A stretch of DNA of 36,221 bases, from contig JASGUU010000062.1 in the NCBI GenBank assembly GCA_030057555.1, forward strand, positions 1 through 36,221. Reading direction: 5' to 3'. The translations under genes and the position numbers were made by a program. The notes beneath the pieces were generated by a model, which worked only from the letters and a program-made list of their open reading frames with translations, did no database searches and was not told the origin of the DNA. Origin of the DNA: Bacillota bacterium (GTDB taxonomy: Bacteria > Bacillota > Clostridia > Saccharofermentanales > Fastidiosipilaceae). This document shows, one piece after another, positions 2,925 to 19,726 of this stretch. Numbering within the stretch: position 1 is the first letter of the stretch; the number at the start of each line of letters is the position of its first letter.

Positions 2925-2962
2925 AGCCAGGTCGGGCATTGCCCCGGCCTGGCTCTCCTTTT
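2925..2962 (+). terminator. Rho-independent terminator between convergent genes
   Basis: AGCCAGG (2925-2931) pairs with CCTGGCT (2948-2954), with an inner G/C stem and an ATT loop, followed by TTTT at 2959-2962. It lies 24 nt after the fucosidase-like stop and touches the stop codon of the convergent gene. On the minus strand the hairpin is followed only by TTCTG, so it is better suited to the plus strand. Confidence 0.65.
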
Positions 2963-3845
2963 ACCATGTCCGGATACTCTGATCGAGCCTGTCCATGTCT
3001 GCTCTGCTGAAGGGCACATCGGGCTGCCGGTCCAGCCAGTCGTAAAAGTCGTCTTGAATCTCGTCGGACCATTTCCCGTCAATCTGACCGGGAGTATAGG
3101 TGCGCGTCCGCATCCGCTCCACACTGAACTGATCACGGTAGACCTCTATCATGCCTGAAAAAGCGGTGTATTCCGCCAGATGGGGCGGTATGAAGACGAC
3201 GCAGCCGCCCTCGGCCAGAACCACATCGCCCGGCATGATCGTAATGTCATCCATCCTCATCGGACAGTTGATCCCCAGCAGCATGATCGTTTCCGGCGAA
3301 GCATGTGTGGGGTCAAAGCCACGGTGGTAGACATTCATTCCCGTGATTCGCTCAATGGCATCCAGATCTCTGACGGCTGCGTTGTGTACCACGCCATTGG
3401 ACGAGTTGGCAAAGATGGATGACGCCAGTCTCTCCCCGATAATCGGGCCGTCCACCAGCTTCCCAAACACGTCCGCCACATACACGTCGCCTTCGACCAG
3501 GCGATCGATCGGCCACGAGATCATGTCGCCGATCTCGCCCGCTTCATGGCCATGGGCGAGCATCAGCTGCCGCAGGTCGGGTCGCTTGGGAACATAAAGG
3601 GCTGTGACGGCACGACCGACCATCTTCCCGCGCGGCAGCGTGGACTCAAAGCCCCGCAGGAACTGCCACCTGTAGCCATGGCCCTTCAGGACGCCCCACG
3701 CGAAGGTCAGGGAAACGTATTTCCGGACGGCTTCCAGCACTTCGTCGGACACCCGCGGCCGGCCGTCGCTGAAGCGCTCACCCTGCCACTCCGGCGTGAA
3801 GTGGATCAGTTCCTCGGGACTCAGGTCATAGGGCAGGTATTTCAT
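2961..3845 (-). CDS. RraA-family (HMG/CHA aldolase-like) protein
   Basis: The product has 294 aa. It carries the RraA-like core: GERLASSIFANSS (about 137-149), then NGVVHNAAVRD (about 150-160), matching the family pattern G-V-(I/V)-x-x-(G/A)-A-V-R-D with the conserved Arg-Asp pair, and GDVVLAEGGCVVFIPP further on. RraA-like proteins include metal-dependent aldolases that cleave 4-hydroxy-2-oxo acids to pyruvate, and also RNase E inhibitors. In this sugar locus an aldolase or lyase role is more likely (inference). At 294 aa it is longer than the roughly 160-230 aa typical of the family, with an extra N-terminal part. The ATG at 3845 has AAAGG 8 nt upstream; a GTG six bases earlier is too close to that site. 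It is the last gene of its cassette, 15 nt after the preceding stop. Confidence 0.7.
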   Translation of the reverse strand: MKYLPYDLSPEELIHFTPEWQGERFSDGRPRVSDEVLEAVRKYVSLTFAWGVLKGHGYRWQFLRGFESTLPRGKMVGRAVTALYVPKRPDLRQLMLAHGHEAGEIGDMISWPIDRLVEGDVYVADVFGKLVDGPIIGERLASSIFANSSNGVVHNAAVRDLDAIERITGMNVYHRGFDPTHASPETIMLLGINCPMRMDDITIMPGDVVLAEGGCVVFIPPHLAEYTAFSGMIEVYRDQFSVERMRTRTYTPGQIDGKWSDEIQDDFYDWLDRQPDVPFSRADMDRLDQSIRTW

Positions 3846-3860
3846 CGTCACAGCCTTTCT

Positions 3861-5903
3861 TCACACAGGATCATAGACAGCGTGATGGTAGCTGGGCCTG
3901 TTCGCGAACCTCTTCATGCCCAGCCTGATCGAGAGTAAGCTGCCCGGACCCAGGTCAACATGAAGCCTGTTTGTATCGACGACATGCTCATCTCCCCATG
4001 TCCGCGATTCGGCTTCCCGGTTTTGCTCCTGTCCCGTCGCCTTCAGCTGCCATGAGCTGAACTGATGCTCGCCGTAGGCTCCCGCCAGTATCGTCAGGGA
4101 ACGCTTCTCCATGGGATGCAGATTGACCAGATCGAGTTCGATGGAATCGGACTCGATGATGCTCACCAGCGCGGCAACATCCGGAGGCAGTCCCGGCCGC
4201 CGCCGTATCCTGTCAAAGTAGCGCACGCTGACCAGCAGCAGTCCGCCGTTGTACAGCGGCAGAGGACCGCCCATGGTCAGATGCACCAGGCCCTCTGTCG
4301 TGATCGGATTCCGCCGCTGCAGATAGTCGTCGTTGTAGGTAGACGGATCGACCCTGTCCTCCCGCATTTCCTTCAGGCGCCGGTACACCTGGTTGATGTT
4401 GTACTGCATCATCACGGCAGGGTAGTCGGGGAAGCAGCCGTCATGGTAGCCGATCAGGGCATGGTCCTGTCCGCCGAGATACTTGAGCGCGGACGGATAG
4501 TACTGATAGCCCTGCTCCGGACCTCCGAAGATCTCCATGCATCTCCGGTCGATCTGCTCGTGGCTGGGCACATCATGATGCCGCGCTTTCCGGAGCATCT
4601 CGAGATCATCAGGGTGCCAGGCGGAGAACCAGGCATGTGTCAGGGGCTGGGGCAGCAGGGGGGCGAACTCGAACCAGCCGTTCACCTGACGCTTGCGCGA
4701 GAAATCCTCCCGGCTGGTGACCCGGTCGGGACGCGTCATCACATTGTCGTTGTGGATGCTGTATTCGAGGATGGAGTCATCGTCGGCATACTTCTGGGGA
4801 ATGTAGAGCATGCTGTTTATGTCGACACCCATGCTCAGCAGATGTGCCGTCTGCCTGCGCAGGTGGGAAAAGTAGTCACTGTTACCGGTCAGAAGGCAGA
4901 CGTTTTCCGCCGCTACGGCGGCCGCTTCGGCGATGAAGCTGAAACCATGTGGCCAGGTCCAGCCATAGTGTCCTCCCCACCATCTGCCGCCCATGTTTTC
5001 GCCAACCACGCCGCCGGGCCCGCAGTTGTCCGGAATGATGCCGTCATTGCCTTCTATGCGTTTCTGCCACGCCCCGGCATAGGCCAGCACCCAGTCCCTG
5101 TACTTGTCCTCTCCCGTATGCAGGTAGGCATTCATGATCAGCGATGTGGAGAGCAGATTGACGAAGGTGTCGCTGCGCGACTGGCGCTCCTGTATGGCCT
5201 CTCCCATGCGCCTCGCGTTCACGGGATCCTTCAGATCCAGAACCGTGGTGACGCCGGGAATGTCCTGAAACGGGAGCCCGTAGAAATCCATCCAGTCCCC
5301 GTAGCCCCATGTGGGCTCTTTCGACAGCTCTGCCGGGCCCATGGAGCCGGATGACGGCGAGGTCATCACCTGGTGCACCGGGTCAAAGTTGGGTATGGCG
5401 ATGGACGGATCTTCATTCAGGAAAAAGCCTGCAAAGCGCGAGGACAGCTGCTGCAGCTCCTCGTCATCCGGATCCGCGAGGTTCAGATGATAGAAGAACT
5501 GGTTTCCCTCGCCCTGATGCATCCAGTCGGCCCGCGAGTAGTAATCCTTTTCAACGGTTTTATTCCCTCTGCCATCCGAATAATGTGAGAACTGCTCGTT
5601 GACGACACGGAACTGCTGCTTGGCGAGCTGCAGGAAGCGGTCGTCACCGCCCAGAACGTAGAAGAGCGGCCAGCTGTGAAAGCTCTCGTAGACATCGTCC
5701 ATGCTGCCCACGCTGATTCCGCTACCGGGACTCTGCGCAGGCCAGAGGAATTCCCCGTTGGGACGCAGGTAGTTCTCGAGAACCATGTCGATCGCGCTGT
5801 TCATGGCATCGATCAGCGACCTCTGCAGAACGGCCCACAACGGGACCTCCCTGGTCGGTCGCTCGTATGTAATCAGCGGAACTTTCTCATCCTTCAGTGC
5901 CAC
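3861..5903 (-). CDS. Large predicted (alpha/alpha)-barrel protein, copy 1, unknown function
   Basis: The product has 680 aa and no signal peptide. Helix-rich segments with repeated aromatic/Gly motifs suggest an alpha/alpha toroid such as that of glycosidases, epimerases or lyases, but I do not recognise the family. Landmarks are DWMHQGEG (126-133), NFDPVHQVMTSP (172-183), GIIPDNCGP (288-296) and WWGGHYGWTWPHG (308-320), with a beta-rich C-terminal region. All of these recur in the gene at 12662-14575, its paralogue. The start is GTG at 5903, preceded by AGGAGGAAGG, and it overlaps the end of the amidohydrolase gene by 17 nt, so the two are co-translated. Position in the operon suggests it acts on the imported saccharide or its oxidised product. 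Confidence 0.6.
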   Translation of the reverse strand: MALKDEKVPLITYERPTREVPLWAVLQRSLIDAMNSAIDMVLENYLRPNGEFLWPAQSPGSGISVGSMDDVYESFHSWPLFYVLGGDDRFLQLAKQQFRVVNEQFSHYSDGRGNKTVEKDYYSRADWMHQGEGNQFFYHLNLADPDDEELQQLSSRFAGFFLNEDPSIAIPNFDPVHQVMTSPSSGSMGPAELSKEPTWGYGDWMDFYGLPFQDIPGVTTVLDLKDPVNARRMGEAIQERQSRSDTFVNLLSTSLIMNAYLHTGEDKYRDWVLAYAGAWQKRIEGNDGIIPDNCGPGGVVGENMGGRWWGGHYGWTWPHGFSFIAEAAAVAAENVCLLTGNSDYFSHLRRQTAHLLSMGVDINSMLYIPQKYADDDSILEYSIHNDNVMTRPDRVTSREDFSRKRQVNGWFEFAPLLPQPLTHAWFSAWHPDDLEMLRKARHHDVPSHEQIDRRCMEIFGGPEQGYQYYPSALKYLGGQDHALIGYHDGCFPDYPAVMMQYNINQVYRRLKEMREDRVDPSTYNDDYLQRRNPITTEGLVHLTMGGPLPLYNGGLLLVSVRYFDRIRRRPGLPPDVAALVSIIESDSIELDLVNLHPMEKRSLTILAGAYGEHQFSSWQLKATGQEQNREAESRTWGDEHVVDTNRLHVDLGPGSLLSIRLGMKRFANRPSYHHAVYDPV

Positions 5904-6732: not shown

Positions 6733-6762
6733 TCTTGCGACTCCTTTGGCAGGACAGGCGAT

Positions 6763-7734
6763 CTAGTGCTGCAGATCGCGCTGAATGAACGAGTATGGAT
6801 CCCTGTTCTGTATCCGGAAGATCTCGGCCCATATCTCGGGCCTGACCACGCGGCTCATGGCGGCGATTGTTGATTCCAGATTCGAGATCCGGTGGATGCC
6901 ATTGAGGAAAATGTCAACGTCCGGATCGAGCAGTGAATACTGCAGAGCGGGATCCAGTATGCTGATCCCTTCCTTCCGGCAGAGATCCTGAATCTGCTTC
7001 GTGATCCGCTGCAGATGCTCCCAGTGCGAGGGCAGAGGCACACCCTCTCTCCAGCCGGAGCGGTAGTGCAGCGGGTCCTGGCTCTTGACCAGGCCAAAAT
7101 GCAGCACCGAGGCGTTGATAAAGGCGCAGCCCTGCTCCCGGCACAGGCGGATCAGGGGCGCGGCGGCGCGCGTCAGAATGCTGTAGTTCTGGTAGCTCAG
7201 CACCGAGTCGACACGTCCGCTGAGAACCGCCAGCATCTCGGCGTTGATGGATCTGGTGCCGATCCCGATGTAGCGAATCCGTCCCCGTCTCTTCTGTTCT
7301 TCGAGGAAGGGTATGACCTGATGTTCGCAGCTCTCAAAGTGGTCCGTGTCGTGGATCTGATAGAGGTCGATGACATCAATGCCCAGACGCTCAAAGCTCT
7401 GTTCAAACGTGGAAACGAACTGCGAGAAGGCATCGGCGGAAGTGCGCCAGGGGAAGTAGGATTTCGTCGCGACAAAGACCGTGTCCCGGGGGATCTGCTT
7501 CAGAAAGAGCCCGACGATGACCTCGCTCTGTCCGTAGTCGGCAGATGTATCATAGAATCTGAAGCCTTTTTCATAGGTTTTCAGGAGGACATCGACATCC
7601 TCATCCTGTCTGACCAGTTGGCCGTTTTCACTGCTGCCCAGGTAGGCACAGCCGACTCCCACCCGCAGAGAGCGCCTGTCCTCTGTTTTCCAGATATAGT
7701 TCCCGATCTCGGCCTTTAGACTCGTAGCTGTCAT
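6763..7734 (-). CDS. Aldo/keto reductase, putative sugar 1-dehydrogenase, copy 1
   Basis: This 323-aa protein has the complete AKR catalytic tetrad: D62 and Y67 (RFYDTSADYG), K91 (VFVATKS) and H128 (DLYQIHD). The N-terminal GVGCAYLG resembles the D-threo-aldose (fucose) 1-dehydrogenase branch of COG0667. It would oxidise an aldose to its lactone using NAD(P) in the cytosol, just before the amidohydrolase/lactonase that follows it 30 nt downstream. The ATG at 7734 has only a weak purine site (GAAGAGAA). Its paralogue is at 14629-15660. The substrate is not determined by the sequence. Confidence 0.75.
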   Translation of the reverse strand: MTATSLKAEIGNYIWKTEDRRSLRVGVGCAYLGSSENGQLVRQDEDVDVLLKTYEKGFRFYDTSADYGQSEVIVGLFLKQIPRDTVFVATKSYFPWRTSADAFSQFVSTFEQSFERLGIDVIDLYQIHDTDHFESCEHQVIPFLEEQKRRGRIRYIGIGTRSINAEMLAVLSGRVDSVLSYQNYSILTRAAAPLIRLCREQGCAFINASVLHFGLVKSQDPLHYRSGWREGVPLPSHWEHLQRITKQIQDLCRKEGISILDPALQYSLLDPDVDIFLNGIHRISNLESTIAAMSRVVRPEIWAEIFRIQNRDPYSFIQRDLQH

Positions 7735-7847
7735 TTCTCTTCATTGTCCAATCTACTGTTGTCAGCTGCCTGGTGTCTGTCCCCGCGCTGCCCGGCACAG
7801 GCGCAGGGCGGAAGCAGCCTGGGCCGGCTGCCATCCCGTAACGAGCA

Positions 7848-7875: not shown

Positions 7876-7906
7876 CCACTTCAATCAAACATGCAGTGCT
7901 TCGGAC

Positions 7907-9499
7907 TCAGGATTTGTTATTCTCCCACCATTCGTCAAGCTGCTTCTGCGCCTCGGCAATCAGTGTGTCAATGCCGGCCTGCTGCAGCTTGGCCACGAAC
8001 TCCTCGTAACGGGTTTCGTAGTCATCTTCGTACTGCCAGTTTTCAAATTCCTTCTTCACGGCGGAGATGTTCGCGATCTCCGTGGTCACGCCCTCGATGT
8101 TGAACGAGAAACCATTGATCGGGGTGATCTCGGCTTCGCGGTTCAGTTTGTCCGTGGCTTCCCAGATGCCATCTTCCTGGTCCTCCAGCAGGATGGCGTT
8201 GAACTGGTTGCCGATGGCCCAGGCGGCGTTGTAGAAGTAGCCGGACTCGTCGATGAGGTGAATCTTCCCTTCGTCCGTCAGCTCATAGTTGGTTCCCTCA
8301 ACACCGAAGTTGAGCATGTTGAAGATCTCGGCATCGGTGTTGAGAATCTCGAGCATGCGCAGCGCCTCTTCCGGGTGCTTCGAGAGTGCGTTGACCGCGG
8401 TCATGGCGGAACGGGAGGCCACAGAGGTGGTGAAGGGCTCCTGCACGCCAACCTGGACCCAGTCATAGTTTGCCGACTTCTTCTTCCGCTCGGCTTCGCC
8501 GCCCGGCTTGATCACGCCGGAAATCGAGGCGAATCTGCCGGCCGCATCGTCAGCACTCTGATCCTCTACGGTGGCAATGTCCTCACGCAGATAGCCATTC
8601 TCCCAGGCCTTGCGGTCCTGCAATCCCGTATACCAGAAACCCATCCCGGTCTTTTCGGACTCTTCCTTATCCAGATACATGGAGATCATGTGGTCCGGAT
8701 CGTCGCTGTCAAAGAAGAGATCATCGACGCCGACGGGGATATACTGATTGCGCACATTGGCGAATGCGCCATAGGTTGCGTTGGTCGGGAAGAGCTCGGG
8801 ATGATTCTCCTTGACGAACTGCCAGAAGGGCTCGGCCTCCCAGTATTCCTTGATATTCTGATACTCGAAGCCGCTCTCTTCGATCAGGTCCTTGCGGAAG
8901 AGAAAGCCCCACTGCGAATAGGTGATCTGGTAGTTGGGCACCGCGTAGATTTTCCCGTTGATACGGGCCTGTTCGAAGAGGAATTCCGGCAGCGCGTCCC
9001 TCAGGGCAGCGTAGTTGGGCAGATAATCGTCCAGAGCCAGGAAGGCTCCCTTGCCGACCTGGGCGGGGTACTTGTTGACCCAGGCCTGAGAGGTGAAGCA
9101 CAGGTCGTAGTCCTCACCGGATGAGATGATCATGTTCATCTTCTCATCGTACATGCCCCAGTCAAAGGTGCGGAAATCCAGCTGGATATTGTGTTTCTCA
9201 GCCAGAATCCGATTCAGCTCTGCGTAGACAGGACCGGAACCTGTCTGTTCACCGGGGGTGCCACTGTACCAGATCACTGTAGCCATCTCCCCGGCTGGTT
9301 TGGCATCTGTCTCCGGCGCAGCCTCCGTAGCCTTCCCGCTGTCACTCTCCGGTGCCGGCTCGGGTGCGTCGGTCTTCTTGGCTGCGGCGGTTGTCGGGGC
9401 TGCGGTTGTAGCGTCTGTCTTCTGGCAGCCCACAGCCAGGCTGCTGATGAGAGCCAGAACGGCCAGCACAGCGATCAGTGATTTCCATTTTCTCCTCAT
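7907..9499 (-). CDS. Sugar ABC transporter substrate-binding lipoprotein, copy 1
   Basis: The product has 530 aa. A lipoprotein signal peptide (MRRKWKSLIAVLAVLALISS) ends in the lipobox LAVGC, with the lipidated Cys at 25. A low-complexity Thr/Ala/Pro/Glu linker runs to about residue 70. The mature part is an extracellular solute-binding protein of the LplA type used with oligosaccharide importers of the CUT1 class. It would be anchored on the outer face of the membrane and deliver a saccharide to the two permeases encoded just upstream. The ATG has AAGGAGGAGGG upstream. The transcript hairpin at 7848-7875 may raise its expression relative to the downstream enzymes. The ligand is unknown. Confidence 0.88.
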   Translation of the reverse strand: MRRKWKSLIAVLAVLALISSLAVGCQKTDATTAAPTTAAAKKTDAPEPAPESDSGKATEAAPETDAKPAGEMATVIWYSGTPGEQTGSGPVYAELNRILAEKHNIQLDFRTFDWGMYDEKMNMIISSGEDYDLCFTSQAWVNKYPAQVGKGAFLALDDYLPNYAALRDALPEFLFEQARINGKIYAVPNYQITYSQWGFLFRKDLIEESGFEYQNIKEYWEAEPFWQFVKENHPELFPTNATYGAFANVRNQYIPVGVDDLFFDSDDPDHMISMYLDKEESEKTGMGFWYTGLQDRKAWENGYLREDIATVEDQSADDAAGRFASISGVIKPGGEAERKKKSANYDWVQVGVQEPFTTSVASRSAMTAVNALSKHPEEALRMLEILNTDAEIFNMLNFGVEGTNYELTDEGKIHLIDESGYFYNAAWAIGNQFNAILLEDQEDGIWEATDKLNREAEITPINGFSFNIEGVTTEIANISAVKKEFENWQYEDDYETRYEEFVAKLQQAGIDTLIAEAQKQLDEWWENNKS

Positions 9500-9560: not shown

Positions 9561-10451
9561 CTAACCCTTTATGGCTCCTACCGTCAGGCCGGACACGAAA
9601 TGCTTCTGGAACAGCGGGAACACCACCAGCATGGGACCGGTGGCAATCACGGCCATGGCCATGAGCAGGTTTTCCCCGGGTACGTCCTCGATGGGAATGG
9701 CTCCCATGCCGGAGGTGGTAAAGTCCATCGCCGCCAGCAGAGCCTGTATATTGCGCTGGATGCTGTAGAGCAGGTATTGCAGGGGGTACAGCCTGGCATC
9801 GTTCAGATAGTAGAGACCGGTCGTCCAGTCGTTCCACTTGCCCATGGCGGTAAAGAAGGCCACGGTGGCCAGCACAGGCTTGGACAGCGGCAGGGCGATT
9901 CGGAAGAAAATGACAGCTTCGGAGGCACCGTCGATCTTGGCGGACTCGAAGATGTCAGACGGGAGCTGCTGGAAGAAGGTTCGGATCATGAAGACGTAGA
10001 AGACATTGATCAGACTGGGGATAATCATGACCCGGTACGTATCCTGCAGCTTGAGATACTGGGTAATCCATATGTAGGACGGGACAATGCCGCCGGAAAA
10101 GAGCATGGTAAAGAAGAAATAGAAAGACAGGGCCCCCCTGAAGGCGCAGTTCCTCCGCGAGAGCGTATAGGCCGCCATCGACATGAACAGCAGACCAAAG
10201 AACACGGTAACAACGGTAACAAATATGGTCACCGCGTAGGACCTGCCAATCACGGCGGGATTTCGGAAGACCGTCTCGTAGGCGTTCAGGCTCAGCGGCG
10301 AGGGAATGAGCTTGTAGCCTGCCTGACTCAGATCAATGGGCCGTGAGAGAGAGGCCGACACAACAATGACAAAGGGAATGATACAGAGGAGCGAATAGAC
10401 GATCCCGATGCCATTCAGCAATATCTGCGGTCTTTTCTTTTTCACCATCAT
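9561..10451 (-). CDS. Sugar ABC transporter permease, LplC-type, copy 1
   Basis: This 296-aa protein has about six membrane segments and the permease EAA loop near FESAKIDGASEAVIFFRIALP, then IALPLSKPVLA. It ends VGAIKG, typical of LplC/YtcP-type permeases (COG0395). The start is set by GAGGA (10459-10463), which overlaps the stop codon of the preceding permease, 7 nt before the ATG at 10451. A longer open frame to 10499 would overlap that permease without a ribosome site. It pairs with the LplB-type permease upstream. No ATPase is encoded nearby, so a shared MsmK-type ATPase elsewhere is expected. Confidence 0.88.
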   Translation of the reverse strand: MMVKKKRPQILLNGIGIVYSLLCIIPFVIVVSASLSRPIDLSQAGYKLIPSPLSLNAYETVFRNPAVIGRSYAVTIFVTVVTVFFGLLFMSMAAYTLSRRNCAFRGALSFYFFFTMLFSGGIVPSYIWITQYLKLQDTYRVMIIPSLINVFYVFMIRTFFQQLPSDIFESAKIDGASEAVIFFRIALPLSKPVLATVAFFTAMGKWNDWTTGLYYLNDARLYPLQYLLYSIQRNIQALLAAMDFTTSGMGAIPIEDVPGENLLMAMAVIATGPMLVVFPLFQKHFVSGLTVGAIKG

Positions 10452-10461
10452 GACTTCGTCC

Positions 10462-11409
10462 TCAGAACAGCGCGTAGTCGGCGTCAATGCGCTTGACAAT
10501 CAGATTGGTAGCGAGGATCAGAACGAAACCGACCACCGACTGAAACAGTCCCGCCGCAGAGGACATGCCAATATCGCCGAGCTTCATCAGCGCACGGTAG
10601 ATGTAGGTGTCAATCACGTCCGTCGTCGGATAGAGCGGGCCCGCGTCCCGAGTGACATTGAAGAACAGGCCGAAGTCGGCTCGGAAAATATTCCCTATGG
10701 CCAGTATCTGCATGATGATGATCAATGGCAGCAGATGCGGCAGGATAATATAGCGCAGCTCGTGCCACCTGTTTGCCCCTTCAAGGGCGGCTACTTCAAA
10801 GTAGTCATGCTCAATCCCCATGAGGCTGGCAAAATAGAACAGGCTCCCGTAGCCGACTCCGCGCCAGAGATTGATGATGACCAGAAGGGCAGGCCATTTA
10901 TAGGGCTCCGAGTACCATTTGACCGGAGTCCCGCCAAAGAAGGTGATGATCTGATTGATGATCCCGCCACTGGGCTTCAGCAGGGCATAGACGAGATAGC
11001 CGACCACAACCCAGGACAGGAAACTGGGAATGATGGTAATGGTCTGGTATGTCTTGATGGCTCTCCTGCTCCTCAGGTAATAGCATAAGAGCGCGAAGGC
11101 GATGTTGCAGATGAGACTCGACACGATCAGCAGGAAATTCATGCCCAGTGTGTTTCGTATCGTCCTCCAGGCGTCAGCCGATTTGAAAAAGAACTCGAAG
11201 TTTTTGAAGCCAACCCATGGGCTGCCAAAAACGCCTTCGGTCACGCGAAAGTGTTTGAAGGCGATGACAATTCCGGACATGGGTATGTAGGCAAAGACAA
11301 AGAGAAGAGCCGCTGCCGGCAACGCCAGAAACGCGAAATGGATGTTGTCTACGATCTTGCTTGCATGCAGGCTTGATGTTTTGAGTCTGTTTCGTTTTAC
11401 GCCAGCCAA
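10462..11409 (-). CDS. Sugar ABC transporter permease, LplB-type, copy 1
   Basis: This 315-aa protein has about six membrane helices and the EAA-type loop YFEVAALEGANRWHELRYI. It also has the FGSPWVGFKNFEFFF periplasmic segment characteristic of LplB/YtdP-associated permeases (COG4209). Translation starts at TTG (11409) with AAGGGGG about 5 nt upstream. It is the first gene of the downstream cassette and follows a good promoter at 11474-11502. Confidence 0.87.
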   Translation of the reverse strand: MAGVKRNRLKTSSLHASKIVDNIHFAFLALPAAALLFVFAYIPMSGIVIAFKHFRVTEGVFGSPWVGFKNFEFFFKSADAWRTIRNTLGMNFLLIVSSLICNIAFALLCYYLRSRRAIKTYQTITIIPSFLSWVVVGYLVYALLKPSGGIINQIITFFGGTPVKWYSEPYKWPALLVIINLWRGVGYGSLFYFASLMGIEHDYFEVAALEGANRWHELRYIILPHLLPLIIIMQILAIGNIFRADFGLFFNVTRDAGPLYPTTDVIDTYIYRALMKLGDIGMSSAAGLFQSVVGFVLILATNLIVKRIDADYALF

Positions 11410-11473
11410 GTCGACCCCCTTTTTGTTAAATTGTCATCAGTTGAAGTGTGAATAAGGCGGAAACTTAGTACAT

Positions 11474-11502
11474 AATATATATTACGCAAGGTTATTTGTA
11501 AA
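11474..11502 (-). promoter_or_regulatory. Promoter of the downstream sugar cassette
   Basis: On the minus strand, TTTACA (11497-11502) and TATATT (11474-11479) are separated by exactly 17 nt, inside the palindrome TAATATATATTA. Transcription would start near 11467 and give a leader of about 58 nt before the TTG at 11409. This is the clearest promoter in the locus and suggests the two cassettes are at least partly separate transcription units. Confidence 0.6.
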
Positions 11503-11519
11503 GTGGAATGCGGTTATTT
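11490..11519 (-). promoter_or_regulatory. Direct repeats AAATAACC around the -35: candidate activator site
   Basis: AAATAACC occurs twice on the minus strand, at 11512-11519 and 11490-11497, 22 bp apart (two helical turns), and runs into the -35 box. Same-face direct repeats are typical of AraC-family activators, which commonly govern Lpl-type importers. A related ACATAACC pair lies upstream of the other cassette. Confidence 0.4.
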
Positions 11520-11617
11520 CCACCTCTCTTTTTCTACTCTTTTTTCTCTGCTTTTCGACCATATGCAGCTGCAGGTACTGCTCTATCCGGCTCTGGCTGC
11601 TCTCACCACCACATTCG

Positions 11618-12526
11618 TCAGCAGCCGGACGGTTCCAGCTTTTCCATAAGCTTGACCATTTCACGGGCCTGCTGTTCTTGAGCGGGCGACAGGCGGCTGA
11701 TTGGACTGCGGACATATGGCGACGTGATGATCCCCCGGGATACGAGTATCTGTTTCAGAACCGGGATGAACGGTGAAGCCACATCGTAGATCTTCATCAG
11801 TCTGTTGAACAGCCTCTGCACTCTGGCAACTTCGCTCAGATTCCCGGCTTCAAACGCCTGTGTCCATGCGCTGCAGAGATGGGGCACAACGTTCGACAGC
11901 GCTCCGATGGCGCCGGCGCCTCCCGACAGGACGCAGCTGGCAAAGTTGTTGTCATAGCCGCAAAAGACCTCAAAGTCCGGATACAGAGGCGAGAGGGACT
12001 CAATCAGCTCCACAGCATGTGTAACGCTGGGAACGGAATCCTTGTACCCGACGATGTTGGCATGTCTGCTCAGCAGCTTCGCTGTGACTTCCAGACGGAG
12101 GTCATGACCGGTTCTGGCGGGGTAGTTATAGAGATACACGGGACCGTCTATCTGCGCGATCACCTGATCAAAGTAGGACTCGATGAGTCGGGGTTCCAGA
12201 TCGATATAGAACGGGCCCACGATCATGACCCCGTCAGCCCCCATCGCCAGTGCTTCTCTGGAGAGCCGTATGGTTTCGGCGGCGGTCAGACAGCCCGTCC
12301 CGATGATAAGAGGCACGCGCCGGCGGACATGTTCCACCGCGTTTCGAATCACCTGCTGCTTTTCGCCATCATCGAGAGCGAAGAACTCGCCGGCACTGCC
12401 CAGCACCAGTAGTCCGTCAATCCCGTTTGCGATCAGGTAATCGTAAAGACGATTGTTCTCACTGTTGTCGGGTGCTCCCGTTTCGGTAAACAGAGTGAGG
12501 CAGGGGCAGTAGTACCTGGCATTCAT
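11618..12526 (-). CDS. DapA/NanA-family aldolase or lyase
   Basis: This 302-aa protein belongs to the class I, Schiff-base TIM-barrel family (COG0329). It carries VLGSAGEF (41-48) in place of the usual GTTGE, the catalytic-type Tyr133 in YLYNYPARTG, and the Schiff-base Lys162 in GYKDS. Members include dihydrodipicolinate synthase, N-acetylneuraminate lyase and 2-keto-3-deoxy-sugar-acid aldolases. A lysine-biosynthesis role is unlikely here because it closes a sugar-transport operon; cleavage of a 2-keto-3-deoxy acid to pyruvate plus an aldehyde is the better inference. The ATG at 12526 has GGGAG 6 nt upstream. It holds the place in the upstream cassette that the RraA-like protein holds in the downstream one. 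Confidence 0.8.
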   Translation of the reverse strand: MNARYYCPCLTLFTETGAPDNSENNRLYDYLIANGIDGLLVLGSAGEFFALDDGEKQQVIRNAVEHVRRRVPLIIGTGCLTAAETIRLSREALAMGADGVMIVGPFYIDLEPRLIESYFDQVIAQIDGPVYLYNYPARTGHDLRLEVTAKLLSRHANIVGYKDSVPSVTHAVELIESLSPLYPDFEVFCGYDNNFASCVLSGGAGAIGALSNVVPHLCSAWTQAFEAGNLSEVARVQRLFNRLMKIYDVASPFIPVLKQILVSRGIITSPYVRSPISRLSPAQEQQAREMVKLMEKLEPSGC

Positions 12527-12661: not shown

Positions 12662-14575
12662 TCATGCTTCGTCCATTTCGATCTGACGCTGCCTGATCCG
12701 TTGCGGCCAGTCCTTCTCCTCCATCCAGGGAGTGCGGTAATCCGGCTTTCCCGTGTAGCGCTGCATGTCGAGCCGCAGGCGAATGCCCGCTCCCGCATCG
12801 AGCTCAACCGCCAGCCATCTTGAACTCTGAGGAAAGATCCGGCTGCCATTTTCGCCGGCGTCCAGAACCTGACAGGCGCTGAAGAGATGCTCGCCGAAGC
12901 AGCCTCCCTGAATGATGAACCTGCAGCTGTCGGAGCTGCCGTTATGGTATTGGACGACAACGTGATCGGGTGCAATGGCTTCAACCAGAGCGCCGACATC
13001 CCGCGGCAGGCCGGGACGTCCGTCATGGAAATAGCGCAGTGCGGTGTGCATCAGGCCGCCGTGATAGATGTTGGTTGAACCGCCGAGCATCAACTGTACG
13101 AGCGCTTCGCAGATAACGGGGTTTTTGTCCTGCCAGTGGTGAATATCCTCACCGGACACGTCGTCCGCGTCGTTCTTGATGTCGTTCACTCTCTCTTCCA
13201 CCGCTGCGATATTGGCCTCGAGGATGGCCTCGGGATAGGCCGGATTCAGGCCCTGAACATAATGGTACCAGGGATGTATCGCCATGCGGTTGCCCTTCTC
13301 GACAACCGTCGGCACGGCACTCCAGGTATCCTGATTCGGCAGCCGGGCGATGCGCGCCAGATCCCCGCCGTCCTGACTGACCGACCACAGATAGACCGGC
13401 CATTTCGTGTTCTCGGGCCTGTAGTCGGCCCAGCCGGTATCAAAATGCCTCTGCGGCACCAGCGGGATGCCTGTTTCATCGAGTTTATGGAGATCATAGA
13501 GGCGGTCCATCTGCGAGCGGGCCAGCTCCAGATGGCGTCTGTCGCCGGTCAGCAGAAGGGCATTGATGCCTGCCGTCAACGTCGGTTCAATGATGGTCAG
13601 AGCGCCATGCGGCCAGCGCCAGCCATAGTAGCCTCCCCACCATTTACCCTCCATCCGGCTGCCGATGACGCCATCCGGTCCGATATTGTCGGGGATGATG
13701 CCGCCGTTCAGGCGTGTGCGCTCCAGCCAGGCGTCGAGGTACTCGACCACCCTGTCCCGATACCGCTCGTCGCCCGTATAGAGGTAGGCATGGGTGAGCA
13801 GGGAGGTGGCATTCAGGTTCAGCGGGACATCGCCCGCCGCCATGCGCTCATTGATCGCAGCCAGGATCGTGCGGTAGGTGGCATCCCCCGACCAGTCGCA
13901 GCGCCTCATCACAAACGGAATCCCCGGCAGATCCTCAAAGGGCGGCAGATAGTGGTCCAGCACCGCGCGGTGCGTCTCCCAGTCCTCCGCACTGTGGCGC
14001 AGCCTCGGACCGCCGCTGCCGTTGATCGGACTTAGCATCATCCGTTTCTCAGGGTCGTAATTCTGCACTGCGCTGTCGCTGCCATCATAGAGAGCGGCGA
14101 AACGGAGCGTGCGGGTCAGAAATTTCAGCGACCCGGGATCGGCGAGACCCATGTAATAGAGGAACAGACTGCCTTCGCCGTGGTGCATCCAGTCGTACCA
14201 CAGGAAGAATTCCTGATGCAGCTGGCCGTACTCCGTCCACTGCCAGGCCACGGAGTCCCACTGCTGATGCGAGAGCCCGAGCAGCCGGGCTGAAGCGCCG
14301 AGAGCATAGAAGAGCGGATAGTTCTGAAAGGCCTCGAAAGCATCATCGGCGCCGTCCATGCCGGGCCAGTAGTCACGCCAGCGCAGTGTCCCATCATCGC
14401 GGACGTACTTGTCCATGAACACGTCGACGGCCGCTTCCATGTTGCGCATCAGGACCCACTCCAGTTCAGCCCAGCGCGGACGCTGCATTTTCCGGCTGCC
14501 CTGGATGAGGGGCATATCCCTCTCCGCAGGATTGGTTGCGGATTCTGTATTCCTGGTGATCGTCTCTTCCTGCAT
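12662..14575 (-). CDS. Large predicted (alpha/alpha)-barrel protein, copy 2, unknown function
   Basis: This 637-aa protein has no signal peptide. It is a clear but divergent paralogue of the product at 3861-5903, sharing DWMHHGEG (128-135), NYDPEKRMMLSP (172-183), PPFEDLPGIP (211-220), GGIIPDNIGP (291-300) and WWGGYYGWRWPHG (312-324). Invariant Asp, His, Glu and Trp residues in these motifs are candidate catalytic or sugar-binding positions. The family is not one I can name; helical toroid folds of this size occur in glycosidases, polysaccharide lyases and sugar epimerases. The ATG at 14575 follows AGGAG at about 9-10 nt. A 135-nt gap separates it from the downstream DapA-family gene. Confidence 0.6.
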   Translation of the reverse strand: MQEETITRNTESATNPAERDMPLIQGSRKMQRPRWAELEWVLMRNMEAAVDVFMDKYVRDDGTLRWRDYWPGMDGADDAFEAFQNYPLFYALGASARLLGLSHQQWDSVAWQWTEYGQLHQEFFLWYDWMHHGEGSLFLYYMGLADPGSLKFLTRTLRFAALYDGSDSAVQNYDPEKRMMLSPINGSGGPRLRHSAEDWETHRAVLDHYLPPFEDLPGIPFVMRRCDWSGDATYRTILAAINERMAAGDVPLNLNATSLLTHAYLYTGDERYRDRVVEYLDAWLERTRLNGGIIPDNIGPDGVIGSRMEGKWWGGYYGWRWPHGALTIIEPTLTAGINALLLTGDRRHLELARSQMDRLYDLHKLDETGIPLVPQRHFDTGWADYRPENTKWPVYLWSVSQDGGDLARIARLPNQDTWSAVPTVVEKGNRMAIHPWYHYVQGLNPAYPEAILEANIAAVEERVNDIKNDADDVSGEDIHHWQDKNPVICEALVQLMLGGSTNIYHGGLMHTALRYFHDGRPGLPRDVGALVEAIAPDHVVVQYHNGSSDSCRFIIQGGCFGEHLFSACQVLDAGENGSRIFPQSSRWLAVELDAGAGIRLRLDMQRYTGKPDYRTPWMEEKDWPQRIRQRQIEMDEA

Positions 14576-14628: not shown

Positions 14629-15660
14629 CTAAAGCAGATCATCCTGTGTGCGCAGGCAGGGGTCCTGATTCTGCAGCTGGTAGATGCGTGCCCACTGTTC
14701 AGGGTGGATGACCTGTCTCATCGCTGCCAGCGTGGCCTCCAGATTCGCCTGGCGCCGTATGCCGTTAAGCGTCATGGTGACCCCGGGTTCAAAGAGGCCG
14801 TACTGCAGCGAAGCAACGACCGGATCGATGCCCATTTCACGGCACAGGTCGCGCATGGCCGCAGCTCGAATATAGGTTCTGCGGATGTATCCCTGTTTGC
14901 CGGCCGCGGCTGTCAGGGGATCCGGCTCCTTGATCGCACCGAAATGGAGCAGGGAAGCGTTGACAAACGAAGCTCCGATATCATGCGCCAGCCTGATGAC
15001 CGGCTCGGCGGAGCGTTTCAGCAGGGAGAAATTCATATAACTGAGTACGGAATCAATCTCGCCGCTGAGCAGAGCCAGTTCCAGCGCGTTCAGCGATCTC
15101 GTGCCGATGCCGATGTAGTCGATCAGGCCCCTGCTGCGCTGCTCGATAAGAAACGGCATCACCTCCGCCTCGCAGATGTTGAAGCTGTCGGTATCATGAA
15201 TCTGAAACAGGTCGATATGATCTGTCTGCAGGCGCTCGAAGCTGCGGTAGAAATTGTCTTTGAAAACAGAAAAGCCCTTTTGTTCTCGAAAGGGATACAT
15301 GGACTTTGTCGCCAGAAAGATAGTCTTCCTGTCAATGCGGCGAATGAATTCACCGACAACAACCTCGCTTTCATGATAGGTCCGCGAAGTATCGTAGTAG
15401 CGCATCCCTGATTCGTAGGATCGCATCAGCAGATCCAGCTCGTCTTTTTGGCTGTAATCGCTTCTCCCGGTATTTCCCAGATGAGCGCAGCCGAAGCCCA
15501 GGGGGATGGAGCGCCCATCGAGAGACCAGCTGAACGAGCGAACCCGCGGGACAATGGGCTTTCTGTTGCTTGTGGTCTCAGCTCTGTCTGCGGCAGGGGA
15601 CTGTATGCTGCTCAAATGCTCAGGGATGTTCTGGTAGCGATGAGATGTTTCGACAGACAC
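14629..15660 (-). CDS. Aldo/keto reductase, putative sugar 1-dehydrogenase, copy 2
   Basis: This is a paralogue of the product at 6763-7734 with the full AKR tetrad in RYYDTSRTYH (Asp, Tyr), FLATKS (Lys) and DLFQIHD (His), and GFGCAHLG at the start of the barrel. The start is uncertain. An open frame reaches a TTG at 15687, but that codon abuts a strong hairpin and lacks a ribosome site. The GTG at 15660 has GGAGAG (15668-15673) 7 nt upstream and is chosen (343 aa). About 40 residues of low-complexity N-terminus precede the barrel and are absent from copy 1. It probably oxidises a sugar at C1; the substrate is not known. Confidence 0.72.
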   Translation of the reverse strand: MSVETSHRYQNIPEHLSSIQSPAADRAETTSNRKPIVPRVRSFSWSLDGRSIPLGFGCAHLGNTGRSDYSQKDELDLLMRSYESGMRYYDTSRTYHESEVVVGEFIRRIDRKTIFLATKSMYPFREQKGFSVFKDNFYRSFERLQTDHIDLFQIHDTDSFNICEAEVMPFLIEQRSRGLIDYIGIGTRSLNALELALLSGEIDSVLSYMNFSLLKRSAEPVIRLAHDIGASFVNASLLHFGAIKEPDPLTAAAGKQGYIRRTYIRAAAMRDLCREMGIDPVVASLQYGLFEPGVTMTLNGIRRQANLEATLAAMRQVIHPEQWARIYQLQNQDPCLRTQDDLL

Positions 15661-15689
15661 TTGTTGACTCTCCGGTGGCGTATTCAAGC

Positions 15690-15715: not shown

Positions 15716-15781
15716 CTTGCAGTCCTTCTCTAAGATCACAGTTAGGCAAAGTGCTTTACCGGCCTGCTACTCGTCTGCTGT

Positions 15782-17731
15782 TCATGGCTTCCTGATGTTC
15801 ATGGTTTCCAGAACCTCTTTATTGGCCTGGAATATGGGAGTCTGACCCTCCAGCAGACCGGCAACATCGAAGCTTTCGTGCATGATCTCCAGCGCGTCGT
15901 TCCATTTCTGCTCAAACTCTTCATCATCCTTTGCAACGAGTGCGAGTTTGAAGGCATCCTCCCAGACCGCTCTGGTCTGGAACATGGTGTTCACCTGCGG
16001 CAGGTGGGCGTAGTCCGGTGCCCATGACTGGAAGGCGGGAACAATCGGCACGTCTTTTGCATACTCGCTGTCGAACGAGAATTTCATGAATGCGTCCTGC
16101 TGGGTGATGGGTTTGGTTGCCCGCCAGATGAATGCGGGAGCATTCGGGCTGCCGGCATAGGGTGCGATGGTAAAGTTACAGTTGTTGGCCCGGTTGTAGT
16201 TCAGGAGACCTCTGCATTCTTTCCAGTCGATACTGGTATCGCCTTCCACAATCGCCCTCTGCAGCGTTTCGTCCGTAAACTCAGGCAATCCATCCGCATT
16301 GATGGTGTAAAGACCCGCAGACTCCGGCCCCCAGTAGCGAACCTTGTCCCACTCGTCCGTAAACTGGGTGTCCACCCAGTACAGCCAGTGTTTCATCTTT
16401 TCTTCGTCCATTGTGACCATGGGCACCAGGAACTGACTGCAGGCGCCGGCAATGCGGACCTGATTGACAGCGGGATAGTCTTCCAGATTGGGCACCTGCG
16501 TGAGGAACGGCACGTAGCGGAATGGTTTTCCGTTCTTCTCCAGCTCGGAGTTCAAAACGTCGAAGCTTCCGTAGCCGATCATGTTGCCGCCCATGGTGCT
16601 GATAACGCCATACTGTCCGTTCAGGTATTTTTCTCTGTACTTTTCAATTGTATGGACAATCGATTCCGGATCGATGACATCATCTCTGATCATCTGGTTC
16701 TGCAGCTGGGCAGCCTGCTTGACCATGGGCAGATCAAATCCGAACTCCAGCTTGTCCTCCGTAAAGTTGTACACGGTCATGTACTCGAGTGTCTTGTAGC
16801 CGACCATCTCTCCGCCCAGAGCGGTCAGGGCCATCCAGTTGTCGCCCTGGACATAGCCAAAGGCATAGACCGGCTTTCCGTTTTCCATCAGATTGAGAGC
16901 CTTGATGTCATAGAACACCTTGACGAATTCATCCGTGCTGTAGACAGGAAGAACAAATTTCTCAACCACAGGCTTGTTTGTCTTCTGAGCTTCAGCCCAT
17001 GCCGTCTCGAAATCCACGGCATCGGGGAAAAGCTCCTTCAGTATGTCGTCACGTATGGCAAAGTACTGGCCGGTCGTCCAGGTCAGCCGCGTAACAGCGG
17101 TTGAGTAAAAGTCGAGATAGCCTTCGGGCATGGTCTCCGGGTCAACAAACCTTGCATTGAGTCCGGTAGGGACGCCATAGATCTTTCCGTTTCTGGTGAC
17201 AACATCCCAGCTGGACTTGGGAACAATGCGCCACGCGTTCGGGGCGTACGTCTGGATGAACTCCGGAGTCATGGCATATGCCTGCTCTGTCTCGACAGCA
17301 CGATCGAAACCTTCAAAGTTGTATGTCACTCCAAAGTCGGGCAGTGTTCCCGCAGCGATCATCGTCTCAAGCTTGACATTTGGTCCCATGCCGCCGTTGC
17401 CGAAGCCTTCTTCGACGTATGCCATGGTCTTCTCGCGCAGCCAGGCATCGGGAACATTCTCAATGGGCGTCTCAATTGTTGGAATGTCCGCGTCATTCAT
17501 CCACCAGTATCTGAAGCTGACCTCGGAGGTGGGCTGATATTCGCTCACTTCACCGGCTTCATCCGATTTTCCCGCTTCCGTTTCAGGTGCCTCTGTCTGC
17601 TTCTGAGCTTCCGTCTTCCCCGCCGTTGCCTTCTCTGTTGATTCAGTAGAAGCCGATGTGGAACAGGCAGCTGCCAGCAGCATGAGCATGCACAGTAGAA
17701 TGGATACCAGTCTGGTTCTCTTCCTCCTCAT
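15782..17731 (-). CDS. Sugar ABC transporter substrate-binding lipoprotein, copy 2
   Basis: The product has 649 aa. The signal peptide MRRKRTRLVSILLCMLMLL leads to the lipobox LAAAC with Cys23, followed by a Ser/Thr/Glu linker. It is an extracellular solute-binding protein of the LplA/YtcQ type, about 120 residues longer than copy 1 and quite divergent from it, so the two probably bind different ligands. The ATG at 17731 has GGGAGG about 8 nt upstream. An extension to 17824 lacks a ribosome site and would bury the signal peptide. Confidence 0.87.
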   Translation of the reverse strand: MRRKRTRLVSILLCMLMLLAAACSTSASTESTEKATAGKTEAQKQTEAPETEAGKSDEAGEVSEYQPTSEVSFRYWWMNDADIPTIETPIENVPDAWLREKTMAYVEEGFGNGGMGPNVKLETMIAAGTLPDFGVTYNFEGFDRAVETEQAYAMTPEFIQTYAPNAWRIVPKSSWDVVTRNGKIYGVPTGLNARFVDPETMPEGYLDFYSTAVTRLTWTTGQYFAIRDDILKELFPDAVDFETAWAEAQKTNKPVVEKFVLPVYSTDEFVKVFYDIKALNLMENGKPVYAFGYVQGDNWMALTALGGEMVGYKTLEYMTVYNFTEDKLEFGFDLPMVKQAAQLQNQMIRDDVIDPESIVHTIEKYREKYLNGQYGVISTMGGNMIGYGSFDVLNSELEKNGKPFRYVPFLTQVPNLEDYPAVNQVRIAGACSQFLVPMVTMDEEKMKHWLYWVDTQFTDEWDKVRYWGPESAGLYTINADGLPEFTDETLQRAIVEGDTSIDWKECRGLLNYNRANNCNFTIAPYAGSPNAPAFIWRATKPITQQDAFMKFSFDSEYAKDVPIVPAFQSWAPDYAHLPQVNTMFQTRAVWEDAFKLALVAKDDEEFEQKWNDALEIMHESFDVAGLLEGQTPIFQANKEVLETMNIRKP

Positions 17732-17820
17732 TACAGGTCCCTCCCAATCGCTGTTTCTACCGTATTCACGGATACGGCAGCCTGTCAGCTTGCTGTCACA
17801 CTCCCGCCGTGACGGGTTTC

Positions 17821-18771
17821 TCACTCCTTGATTGCCCCGATCATGATTCCTTTGACAAAGTATTTCTGGAGAAACGGGTAGACTACGACAATCGGTATGG
17901 TCGATACCATCAGGGTGGCGGCTTTCAGCGATTCCGGCGTTATCTTGGGAACATCCTCGCCTGAGGCCAGCCCCTGACGGGCACGGTCGGCGGCGATCTG
18001 CATCATGACTTCCGATTCCTTCAAAAGCCGGTACATCATGAACTGCAGGGTATGCAGGCTTTTGGATTGCACGTACAGGAGGGTGGACGTCCAGTCATTC
18101 CAGTGAAAAACAGCCATCCACAGAGCAATCGTAGCGATAACCGGCATGGACAGAGGCACGTAGATTCGGAACATGATGTCAACACTGTTTGCCCCATCCA
18201 GCATGGCCGACTCCTCCAGCGATTCCGGTATGGTGCGGAGGAAGGTGCGGATGATAATCATGTTATAGAAGCCAAACAGATAAGGCAGGATATACACGGG
18301 GAATTTGTTCATCAGCCCCATCATCCGGTACAGGATAAAGGTGGGAATCATTCCGCCTGAAACGAACATCGGAATCAGCAGTACGGTGGTAAAGAAAGCT
18401 CTTCCGGGCAGACTCTGTTTCGACAGCGCATAGGCAGCTGAATAGGTGACGAACAGGCCCGACAGGCAGCCCACGATGACACGTACAACGGAGACAAAAA
18501 GTGCGCTGGTGAACATGCTGTTCGAAAACACCATGTTATAGTTTTCAAACGTAATCACGCGCGGATAAACCGTAATACCGCCCAAAGCGGTATCGTTGGA
18601 ATCGTTCAGCGAAACCGCCAGCTGATTAACATACGGGTAGATAAAGATGATGCAGAGCAGGATCATCAAGGTAATGTTGAACACATTGAACACACGTTCA
18701 CTGGTTTTCCAGCGTCGGCCACGGGAAGGGCTGGACGAGTAATTCGCTGTTTCCTGTTCGTTCCCTGACAT
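17821..18771 (-). CDS. Sugar ABC transporter permease, LplC-type, copy 2
   Basis: This 316-aa protein has six predicted helices and the EAA-type loop LEESAMLDGANSVDIMFRIYVP. It ends MIGAIKE, matching the C-terminal pattern of copy 1. The ATG at 18771 has GGAGAGAG upstream, 14 nt after the stop of the LplB-type permease; a start at 18801 would overlap that gene without a ribosome site. It forms the importer with the adjacent LplB-type permease and the lipoprotein downstream. Confidence 0.88.
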   Translation of the reverse strand: MSGNEQETANYSSSPSRGRRWKTSERVFNVFNITLMILLCIIFIYPYVNQLAVSLNDSNDTALGGITVYPRVITFENYNMVFSNSMFTSALFVSVVRVIVGCLSGLFVTYSAAYALSKQSLPGRAFFTTVLLIPMFVSGGMIPTFILYRMMGLMNKFPVYILPYLFGFYNMIIIRTFLRTIPESLEESAMLDGANSVDIMFRIYVPLSMPVIATIALWMAVFHWNDWTSTLLYVQSKSLHTLQFMMYRLLKESEVMMQIAADRARQGLASGEDVPKITPESLKAATLMVSTIPIVVVYPFLQKYFVKGIMIGAIKE

Positions 18772-18784
18772 GTCTTTCTCTCTC

Positions 18785-19726
18785 CTACCAGACACCGACA
18801 CCGCTGAGTGATTTTGAGATCCGGTTCACGACAAACATGATGATGAATGAAACAACTCCCTGCGTGAGGCCAAATGCCGTTGCCAGCGAAAATTTGCCCT
18901 GCTGAAGACCGTAGCGATACACAATTGTGTTGATCACCTCGGAAGATTCTCTGGTGTACAGATTCTGCAGACCAATGATCTGCTCAAAGTTCGCATTGAG
19001 CAGTCCGCCTGCCTGCATGATGAAGAGGATCACGATTGTGGGCATGATTCCGGGAAGGGTGATATGCAGGACCAGTCTGAAGCGTCCGCAACCATCCACA
19101 ACGGCCGCTTCATACAGTTGACCATCGATTCCCGATATGGCAGCGAGGTAGATAATCGTTCCCCAGCCAATTTCCTTGTATACGTGCGACCAGAACATGA
19201 TGCCGGTGAAATACCTGGGTTCCATCAAAATGTTGACCCGCGGCGTATCCGGCCCGAACAATCGCAGGCGAAGGTCATTCAGTGGACCATACAATTCGAA
19301 GAACGAATAAAAGAGCGAGACGACTGCTATCCAGGAAAGAAAATAGGGAAGGTAGCTGACAGTCTGAACAATGCGTTTGAAGGTCATATTCGTCAACTCA
19401 TTCAGTAGAAGGGCGAATATAATCGTCAGGGGAAAGGCGAAGAATAATTTGAGAACACTGTAATAGATGGTGTTAACAATCGCTCTGCGGAGCGGGTCTA
19501 TACGAAACATTTCAATGAAATGTTTGAATCCGACCCAGGGACTGCCTCTGAAACCCTTTATGATGTCAAAATCCTGAAAGGCCATGACTATCCCTGCCAT
19601 GGGCAGAAACTGAAACACAAGAGTCCAGACCAGGGCAAAGCCGATGAGGACATAGTAGAGGGCGTGCTGACGAATGCGAATCATCAGTTTTCGCCGATTC
19701 ATGTACTTTGATGGTGTCGCACTCAT
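18785..19726 (-). CDS. Sugar ABC transporter permease, LplB-type, copy 2
   Basis: This 313-aa permease has about six membrane helices, FRGSPWVGFKHFIEMF after the first helix, and the EAA loop LYEAAVVDGCGRFRLVLHI. The ATG at 19726 follows GAGGT at 7 nt. It is the first gene of the whole leftward locus. Its upstream region (19727-20150) holds repeated ATAACC motifs and a long palindrome. Confidence 0.88.
   Translation of the reverse strand: MSATPSKYMNRRKLMIRIRQHALYYVLIGFALVWTLVFQFLPMAGIVMAFQDFDIIKGFRGSPWVGFKHFIEMFRIDPLRRAIVNTIYYSVLKLFFAFPLTIIFALLLNELTNMTFKRIVQTVSYLPYFLSWIAVVSLFYSFFELYGPLNDLRLRLFGPDTPRVNILMEPRYFTGIMFWSHVYKEIGWGTIIYLAAISGIDGQLYEAAVVDGCGRFRLVLHITLPGIMPTIVILFIMQAGGLLNANFEQIIGLQNLYTRESSEVINTIVYRYGLQQGKFSLATAFGLTQGVVSFIIMFVVNRISKSLSGVGVW

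Follow-up and report, generated by a model that had tools for sequence, protein, structure and literature searches.

The 36,221-nucleotide contig JASGUU010000062.1, part of a 2.9 Mb genome assembly of a Bacillota bacterium of the Fastidiosipilaceae (GCA_030057555.1), was analysed over its whole length (the window; GC 59%). It carries two neighbouring gene cassettes on the minus strand, copy A at 19726-11618 and copy B at 11409-2961. Both follow the order LplB-type permease, LplC-type permease, binding lipoprotein, aldo/keto reductase (AKR), barrel protein and carbon-carbon lyase, and the barrel protein is the main subject of this analysis. The gene order and strand had been described in a reading made from the letters of the DNA (the sequence-only reading), and all the open reading frames (ORFs) that it named were found in place. 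Its statement that the order is the same in both copies holds for the six shared genes; it missed an additional Amidohydro_2 gene (5887-6732), which lies between the AKR and barrel genes of copy B and is absent from copy A.

Copy A begins with an LplB-type ABC permease gene (18785..19726; BPD_transp_1, 46.4 bits) and an LplC-type ABC permease gene (17821..18801; BPD_transp_1, 43.4 bits). The 680-residue binding lipoprotein that follows (15782..17824) belongs to no Pfam family and has, judged by eye, a Cys-containing lipoprotein-like N-terminus. The AKR (14629..15687; Aldo_ket_red, 131 bits) is a candidate aldose 1-dehydrogenase, whose top Protein Data Bank (PDB) match is the L-galactose dehydrogenase 7lh6 (E 6.8e-18). 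Next comes the 637-residue barrel protein (12662..14575), and the block ends with a YagE-like aldolase of the DHDPS/NAL superfamily (11618..12526; DHDPS, 214.7 bits; top PDB match YagE, 3n2x and 2v8z).

In copy B the permeases (LplB-type, 10462..11409, BPD_transp_1 47.1 bits; LplC-type, 9561..10499, BPD_transp_1 39.8 bits) are followed by a binding lipoprotein with a C-terminal DUF3502 domain (7907..9499; 55.6 bits) and an AKR that is again a candidate aldose 1-dehydrogenase (6763..7734; Aldo_ket_red, 133.7 bits). The additional amidohydrolase (Amidohydro_2, 97.3 bits; PDB 4dlf, E 1.3e-14) is a candidate aldonolactonase; its best NCBIfam model is L-fucono-1,5-lactonase, at 92.9 bits, below the cut-off of 400. 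The barrel protein of this copy has 680 residues (3861..5903), and the last gene encodes an RraA-like protein, a candidate class II aldolase (2961..3851; RraA-like, 57.9 bits; PDB 5x15, 3k4i, 3noj). The gap between the copies (11410..11617) contains, on the same strand, a promoter-like site, TTTACA-17-TATATT at 11502-11474. This is a consensus match only, and it is weak because the region holds fewer such sites than shuffled sequences do (6 found, 10.1 expected).

The families encoded here recall the non-phosphorylating catabolism of L-fucose. In the available part of PMC11199699 the scheme is given as mutarotase, 1-dehydrogenase, lactonase and dehydratase, followed either by a 4-dehydrogenase and a hydrolase or by an aldolase; routes 1 and 3 of the L-fucose pathway use FucM, FucA, FucB, FucC and either FucH or FucF plus FucG, and the L-rhamnose route is homologous. 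The cassettes resemble the pathway as described there in having a candidate 1-dehydrogenase, a candidate COG3618-type lactonase (copy B), a putative pyruvate aldolase of the DHDPS superfamily or of another family, and clustered genes. They differ from it in that the FucA-like enzyme is an AKR, a FucC of enolase or altronate-dehydratase type is missing, a barrel protein is present and the lyase of copy B is RraA-like. None of the known sugar-acid dehydratases (enolase, UxaA/GarD or ILVD type) was detected by Pfam among the 14 cassette ORFs scanned.

We tentatively propose, with a probability of roughly 0.4, that the two are catabolic cassettes of the non-phosphorylating aldose type (route 1) which were assembled separately and in which the barrel protein acts as the dehydratase. 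What the data show is the gene order, the protein families, the recurrence of the neighbourhood, the predicted fold and the absence of known dehydratases from pathway operons that contain the barrel; the activities and substrates that follow are inferred. Judged from the protein families, the ABC importer formed by LplB, LplC and the lipoprotein would take up a sugar or short glycan. The AKR, to judge by its kinship with L-galactose dehydrogenase and its position in the cassette, would oxidise the free aldose at C1 to the lactone, which the amidohydrolase of copy B would open. The barrel protein would then dehydrate the aldonic acid to a 2-keto-3-deoxy acid, the new claim made here, and the DHDPS-type enzyme (copy A) or RraA-type enzyme (copy B) would split this acid to pyruvate and an aldehyde, presumably L-lactaldehyde if the sugar is a 6-deoxyhexose. 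Copy A, which lacks a lactonase, might borrow that of copy B or depend on spontaneous opening of the lactone. The substrates would most likely be L-fucose, L-rhamnose or a close relative. The chain of import, C1 oxidation and aldol split put forward in the sequence-only reading fits the scheme in the available part of PMC11199699. That reading had called the cassette previously unassembled, which is overstated as regards its metabolic logic, already published, and stands for the barrel, which is no known part of it: the kind of pathway is known and the barrel family is the new part. Cleavage, the role that it had given to the barrel, is one of the two readings that we still entertain.

Neither barrel protein matches Pfam at E 0.001 (MR_MLE, GD_AH and ILVD_EDD included) or NCBIfam at E 1, and sequence searches of the PDB with the copy A barrel or with a profile of 64 members gave chance matches only, with no convincing relative. 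Its structure was modelled with AlphaFold2 and compared with known folds by Foldseek and VIA-align. The copy A protein is confidently predicted to be an (alpha/alpha)6 barrel (mean pLDDT 92.2, pTM 0.93), with barrel helices over residues 34-497 and a C-terminal beta domain at 513-605. The fold matches are all remote (TM about 0.3, identity 8-13%) and comprise GH127 (E 2.1e-5, aligned over most of the length), GH76 (Z 16.1 over 287 residues, rmsd 5.4), GH88/GH105 (Z 14.7 for GH88), GH47 and cellobiose 2-epimerases. Z values of 14-16 are weak, as helical models without a clear match reach a best Z near 14 in this tool, and the comparison covers the fold families in its list. The barrel thus shares an overall predicted fold with these enzymes, but it differs from the (alpha/alpha)6 glycoside hydrolases in its low TM and in finding none of them by Pfam, NCBIfam or PDB profile search. 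Many of the positions invariant over the 64 members are Asp, Glu, His, Asn, Trp or Tyr (among them D77, D78, E81, D128, H131, E134, D296, N297, W312, Y317, W321 and H323 in copy A numbering). Invariant Trp and Tyr are typical of glycan binding. Some long barrel ORFs seemed to carry fused domains; on visual inspection these were taken for run-on frames in GC-rich DNA and were rejected.

The predominance of (alpha/alpha)6 glycosidases among the Foldseek and VIA-align matches, and the many invariant Trp, Tyr and acidic residues, weigh against a dehydratase and point to a reading that we consider nearly as likely. The barrel protein would be an intracellular glycoside hydrolase or lyase that frees a sugar, or a sugar together with a uronic acid, from oligosaccharides taken up by the cell, for instance fragments of rhamnogalacturonan or fucosylated glycans; the product would pass to the AKR, lactonase and aldolase, and a dehydratase would be encoded elsewhere. 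The LplB/LplC class of importers suits oligosaccharides, in keeping with such a role. However, matches at TM of about 0.3 are remote, and a common fold does not show function. The fold searches also retrieved cellobiose 2-epimerase and AGE-type structures (Z 14.6; E 1.2e-4). An enzyme that epimerises or isomerises the free sugar or the aldonic acid, and so feeds one stereoisomer into the shared oxidative pathway, would be compatible with loci both with and without dehydratases. We regard this as unlikely, since the C-terminal beta domain is foreign to AGE-type structures, profile searches found no sequence link, and epimerisation does not predict the exclusion with UxaA/GarD-type dehydratases described below.

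Scanning one genome per species gave at least 563 barrel relatives among at least 595 matching stretches, and the loci of the best 80 of these relatives were analysed. They belong to Paenibacillus, Cohnella, Devosia, Actinopolymorpha, Chloroflexi, Armatimonadetes, Poribacteria and others. Plasmid records gave 17 matches, mostly from haloarchaea; 11 of these regions were viewed, nine of them haloarchaeal, with one bacterial record lacking annotation. No published description of the family was recognised in literature titles and abstract openings, where family names cannot be searched by sequence.

Genes that recur around the barrel in the 80 loci encode an AKR (25 loci), an SDR (20), a 217-residue protein (19), a lactonase-type amidohydrolase (16), a GH88-like protein (9), an FAA hydrolase (7) and a RhaM-like protein (6). 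As one AKR cluster is present in 25 loci, and 39 of the 80 have an AKR or lactonase no more than 7 kb from the barrel, the link between AKR and barrel is more than chance. The co-occurrence that the sequence-only reading had suggested as a check is therefore borne out, the barrel recurring in other genomes with AKR, lactonase, LplB/LplC transporters and downstream genes for carbon-carbon cleavage. The 217-residue protein (about 215 residues, for example L033:12771-13415) has two domains and no Pfam match. Its model (pLDDT 85.7) has a two-domain alpha/beta fold, for which Foldseek places L-rhamnose mutarotases no higher than ranks 34 and 38 (E 0.03-0.04, with a TM by target of 0.64 and 0.72), a weak lead that it may be RhaM-like.

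The most informative locus is that of Cohnella terricola (L075), where RhaM, lactonase, SDR, FAA hydrolase, SDR and barrel genes stand in a row after a transporter. The best model for the FAA protein is 2,4-didehydro-3-deoxy-L-rhamnonate hydrolase, below cut-off (PDB 8gsr), and for the amidohydrolase L-fucono-1,5-lactonase, also below cut-off; L-fucose dehydrogenase is within the 25 best listed models for the second SDR, not at the top. Set against the scheme in the available part of PMC11199699, only the dehydratase step of this operon is unaccounted for. The barrel accompanies both endings of the pathway, an aldolase in the window and an SDR plus FAA hydrolase elsewhere, as it should if it acts at the 2-keto-3-deoxy acid or earlier in the pathway. 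Minimal operons consisting of AKR, barrel, lactonase and the 217-residue protein (for example L033 and L035) contain no transporter and no other glycosidase, which argues against a glycosidase acting on imported fragments, as does the presence in other loci of a GH88-like or GH95 gene whose product could release the sugar. In favour of a glycosidase, pectin-type genes are found near barrels, encoding GH88-like, beta-helix and heparinase-like proteins, GH35, GH43 and GH95, and pectate lyases occur in five of the nine haloarchaeal plasmid regions viewed.

The FAA hydrolase served as a second anchor for comparing operons with and without the barrel. Eighty FAA regions were taken from the order of Cohnella terricola, in which 164 of 296 genomes have an FAA match. 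Seventy-nine came from the top 85 rows, with the query's own row, G823, G712, G632, G718 and G548 passed over, and G578:C34 was picked from lower down for its adjoining MR_MLE gene. A greedy gene caller overlooked the barrel in three of the 80 barrel loci and FAA in several regions, and the exclusion counts therefore use six-frame searches. Each dehydratase profile drew on 3 to 7 sequences, so that distant members were possibly missed, and three members were put through Pfam to check the UxaA/GarD-type assignment.

Of the 80 FAA regions, 38 had a UxaA/GarD-type dehydratase, four MR_MLE, five ILVD_EDD, three the barrel, and in 30 none of them was present; no two of the four occurred in one region. 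Seventeen regions also contained an AKR or lactonase, and here the UxaA/GarD type was present in 13, the barrel in three and neither in one. Six barrel-anchored loci had an FAA gene, and none of the six had another dehydratase. Among pathway operons of Paenibacillaceae, Bacillaceae and relatives, a known dehydratase was absent from 9 of 9 with the barrel and from 1 of 14 without it (Fisher p 1.2e-5); the dehydratase in the other 13 comparable operons was of UxaA/GarD type, with few independent origins. When only the FAA-sampled loci were counted, a dehydratase was present in 0/3 operons with and 13/14 without the barrel (p 0.006), and when close relatives were collapsed by hand in 0/4 and 8/9 (p 0.007). 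The Fisher test with 47/77 gave p 4.6e-4 and, at a narrower distance, with 42/77, p 0.0025. One FAA clade (SH-aLRT 99) holds two barrel operons (L144 and L028, the latter from Neobacillus niacini) and five UxaA/GarD-type operons whose other genes are equal. UxaA/GarD- or ILVD-type genes were found in none of the 80 barrel loci over the sequence extent of each. A glycosidase role does not in itself account for the contrast between 9 of 9 and 1 of 14. A 900-residue protein with a doubled UxaA/GarD-type dehydratase (L174:1597-4299 and four relatives) was also seen, heading AKR-lactonase-SDR-FAA operons.

Enzymes of the altronate/galactarate dehydratase superfamily (UxaA/GarD), known from aldonate pathways (PMC6336799), occupy the operon position that the barrel holds in related operons. 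The barrel is unlike them in showing no GD_AH match at E 0.001 and in its predicted fold. It is possible, though we put this forward with reserve, that the barrel family is a new and structurally unrelated class of aldonate dehydratase with an (alpha/alpha)6 barrel as its scaffold, which changes places with the UxaA/GarD type in operons, is distributed over several bacterial phyla and haloarchaea, and serves twice in the window for related substrates with two different aldolases. If so, it would add a fold to the aldonate dehydratases and fill an annotation gap in fucose and rhamnose use by microbes of soil and gut and by halophiles. A glycosidase, on the other hand, would constitute a new family acting on pectic or fucosylated fragments after their import. 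In either case a large unnamed family is found repeatedly in deoxysugar and pectin-type catabolic operons.

Several further observations weigh against a dehydratase role. The barrel state switches four times along the FAA tree, which leaves two to four independent contrasts; in none of these do both traits rise together, and the phylogeny-corrected exclusion is not significant. MR_MLE lies within 10 kb of the barrel in 13 of 80 loci, eight of them from Devosia, and adjoins it on the same strand in L042, L034 and L076. Haloarchaeal plasmid regions have MR_MLE in three of nine and mannonate dehydratase in one of nine, within about 9 kb, in addition to the pectate lyases mentioned above. In L016, the nearest relative of copy A, which we take from its sample name to be a termite-gut-type Oscillospiraceae, the genes after the barrel encode an SDR and a UxuA-like protein (128.7 bits), with no DHDPS aldolase in place (L016:7666-9870); the UxuA-like gene is not a recurrent neighbour, being present in 1 of the 160 loci searched. 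A glycosidase would account for these loci with both the barrel and an MR_MLE or UxuA-like gene. Thirty of the 80 FAA regions are without any recognised dehydratase. In a check of 24 genomes, of which 21 have a barrel locus, 23 contained a UxaA/GarD-type gene somewhere, and an MR_MLE match is present in 39 of 39 barrel genomes, so that the dehydratase could come from elsewhere. The host genome of the window itself has three MR_MLE matches above cut-off, one ILVD_EDD and no UxaA/GarD type, and none of the MR_MLE or ILVD matches is on this contig.

The sequence-only reading had presented the cassettes as an old module, copied and specialised, with five paralogous families. Between copies A and B, BLASTP gave identities of 49.7% for the AKRs, 31.7% for the barrels, 34-35% for LplC and 32.3% for LplB, and about 25% over 195 residues (E 1e-5) for the lipoproteins. 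The copies are clearly divergent, as had been stated. Paralogy was upheld for the AKR and barrel, which by these alignments appear to be the only specific paralogues; the binding proteins are barely alike, and the lyases are not paralogues as they come from different families (DHDPS and RraA). The order LplB-LplC-lipoprotein is common for this transporter class, and the transporter part of the parallel therefore says little. Each copy matches a separate cassette elsewhere. Copy A is related to L016 (LplB 75%, LplC 73%, lipoprotein 68%, AKR 60%, barrel 61% identity) and copy B to L100, which lies on contig C189 of G071, a genome of the window's own taxonomic order (LplB 75%, LplC 80%, lipoprotein 66%, barrel 54% from a partial sequence). 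On C189 the barrel directly follows the lipoprotein, and a response regulator and a histidine kinase lie upstream.

Trees were built for the barrel and AKR, the histories of LplB, LplC and the lipoprotein being compared by identities. In the barrel tree copy A falls among Oscillospiraceae relatives, and copy B is on a separate branch with the G071 copy. A single clade of both barrels and their orthologues was rejected (p-AU 1.1e-5, or 6.5e-5 with L017 added) in a test of 31 rows, from which the very long plasmid rows L096 and L098 and some others of the 38-row first tree were omitted, and in which the fairly long branch of copy B was kept. In the AKR tree, which sampled AKRs from barrel and FAA loci only, copies A and B and L016 form one group (SH-aLRT 97) apart from the Paenibacillus AKRs. 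The histories of two of the five shared families thus differ, the barrel tree separating the copies and the AKR tree uniting them. Agreement among family trees had been offered as the check on a copied module; the two trees disagree, so that block duplication of one cassette is not supported and, for the barrel, was rejected. Identical gene order on one strand would fit duplication of an ancestral cassette in this lineage, as would the similarity of the two AKRs, which exceeds that to every other barrel-linked AKR sampled but the one of L016. Nevertheless the separate barrel clades, the unrelated lyases, and permeases that share 32-35% identity with each other yet 73-80% with their own counterparts elsewhere make such an origin improbable. 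A single block duplication is unlikely, and the copies would be two separately assembled cassettes, a view tempered by the long branches and the limited AKR sampling. AKRs of at least two lineages appear to have become linked to barrels, which supports a functional link.

The barrel is rare around the host. It was found in 2 of 188 genomes of the window's order, its own included, in 2 of 148 close relatives and in 1 of 398 genomes drawn from the phylum, this one being the window's own; the same-genus genome G001 has none. The cassettes have a GC content of 55-57%, compared with 63-64% in the DNA to the right, and a tRNA-Arg(ccg) gene (20191-20265, minus strand) lies directly upstream of copy A. 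The lower GC beside the tRNA gene may point to an acquired island. A second copy of the tRNA-Arg end, of at least 12 bases, was not found in the window, and the Na/Pi gene flanking the cassettes has no match in G001.

Converging with copy B, a glycosidase-like protein is encoded at 940-2901 on the plus strand, with GHL6 and GH42M matches and a sub-threshold match to alpha-L-fucosidase. The plus-strand trio at 25378-28560 resembles nickel-pincer cofactor genes: an ORF without a Pfam match, which we take to be LarE-like, is accompanied by genes for a LarB-like AIRC protein and a Ni_insertion protein of LarC type. We noticed no LarA-like gene in the window, where the presumed cassette product is lactaldehyde or lactate. 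GNAT_C/NAT_N acyltransferase domains are present in two minus-strand proteins (20301-22097 and 29237-30538), and a short AbiEii-like nucleotidyltransferase fragment (38.8 bits) lies at 28710-29240 on the plus strand.

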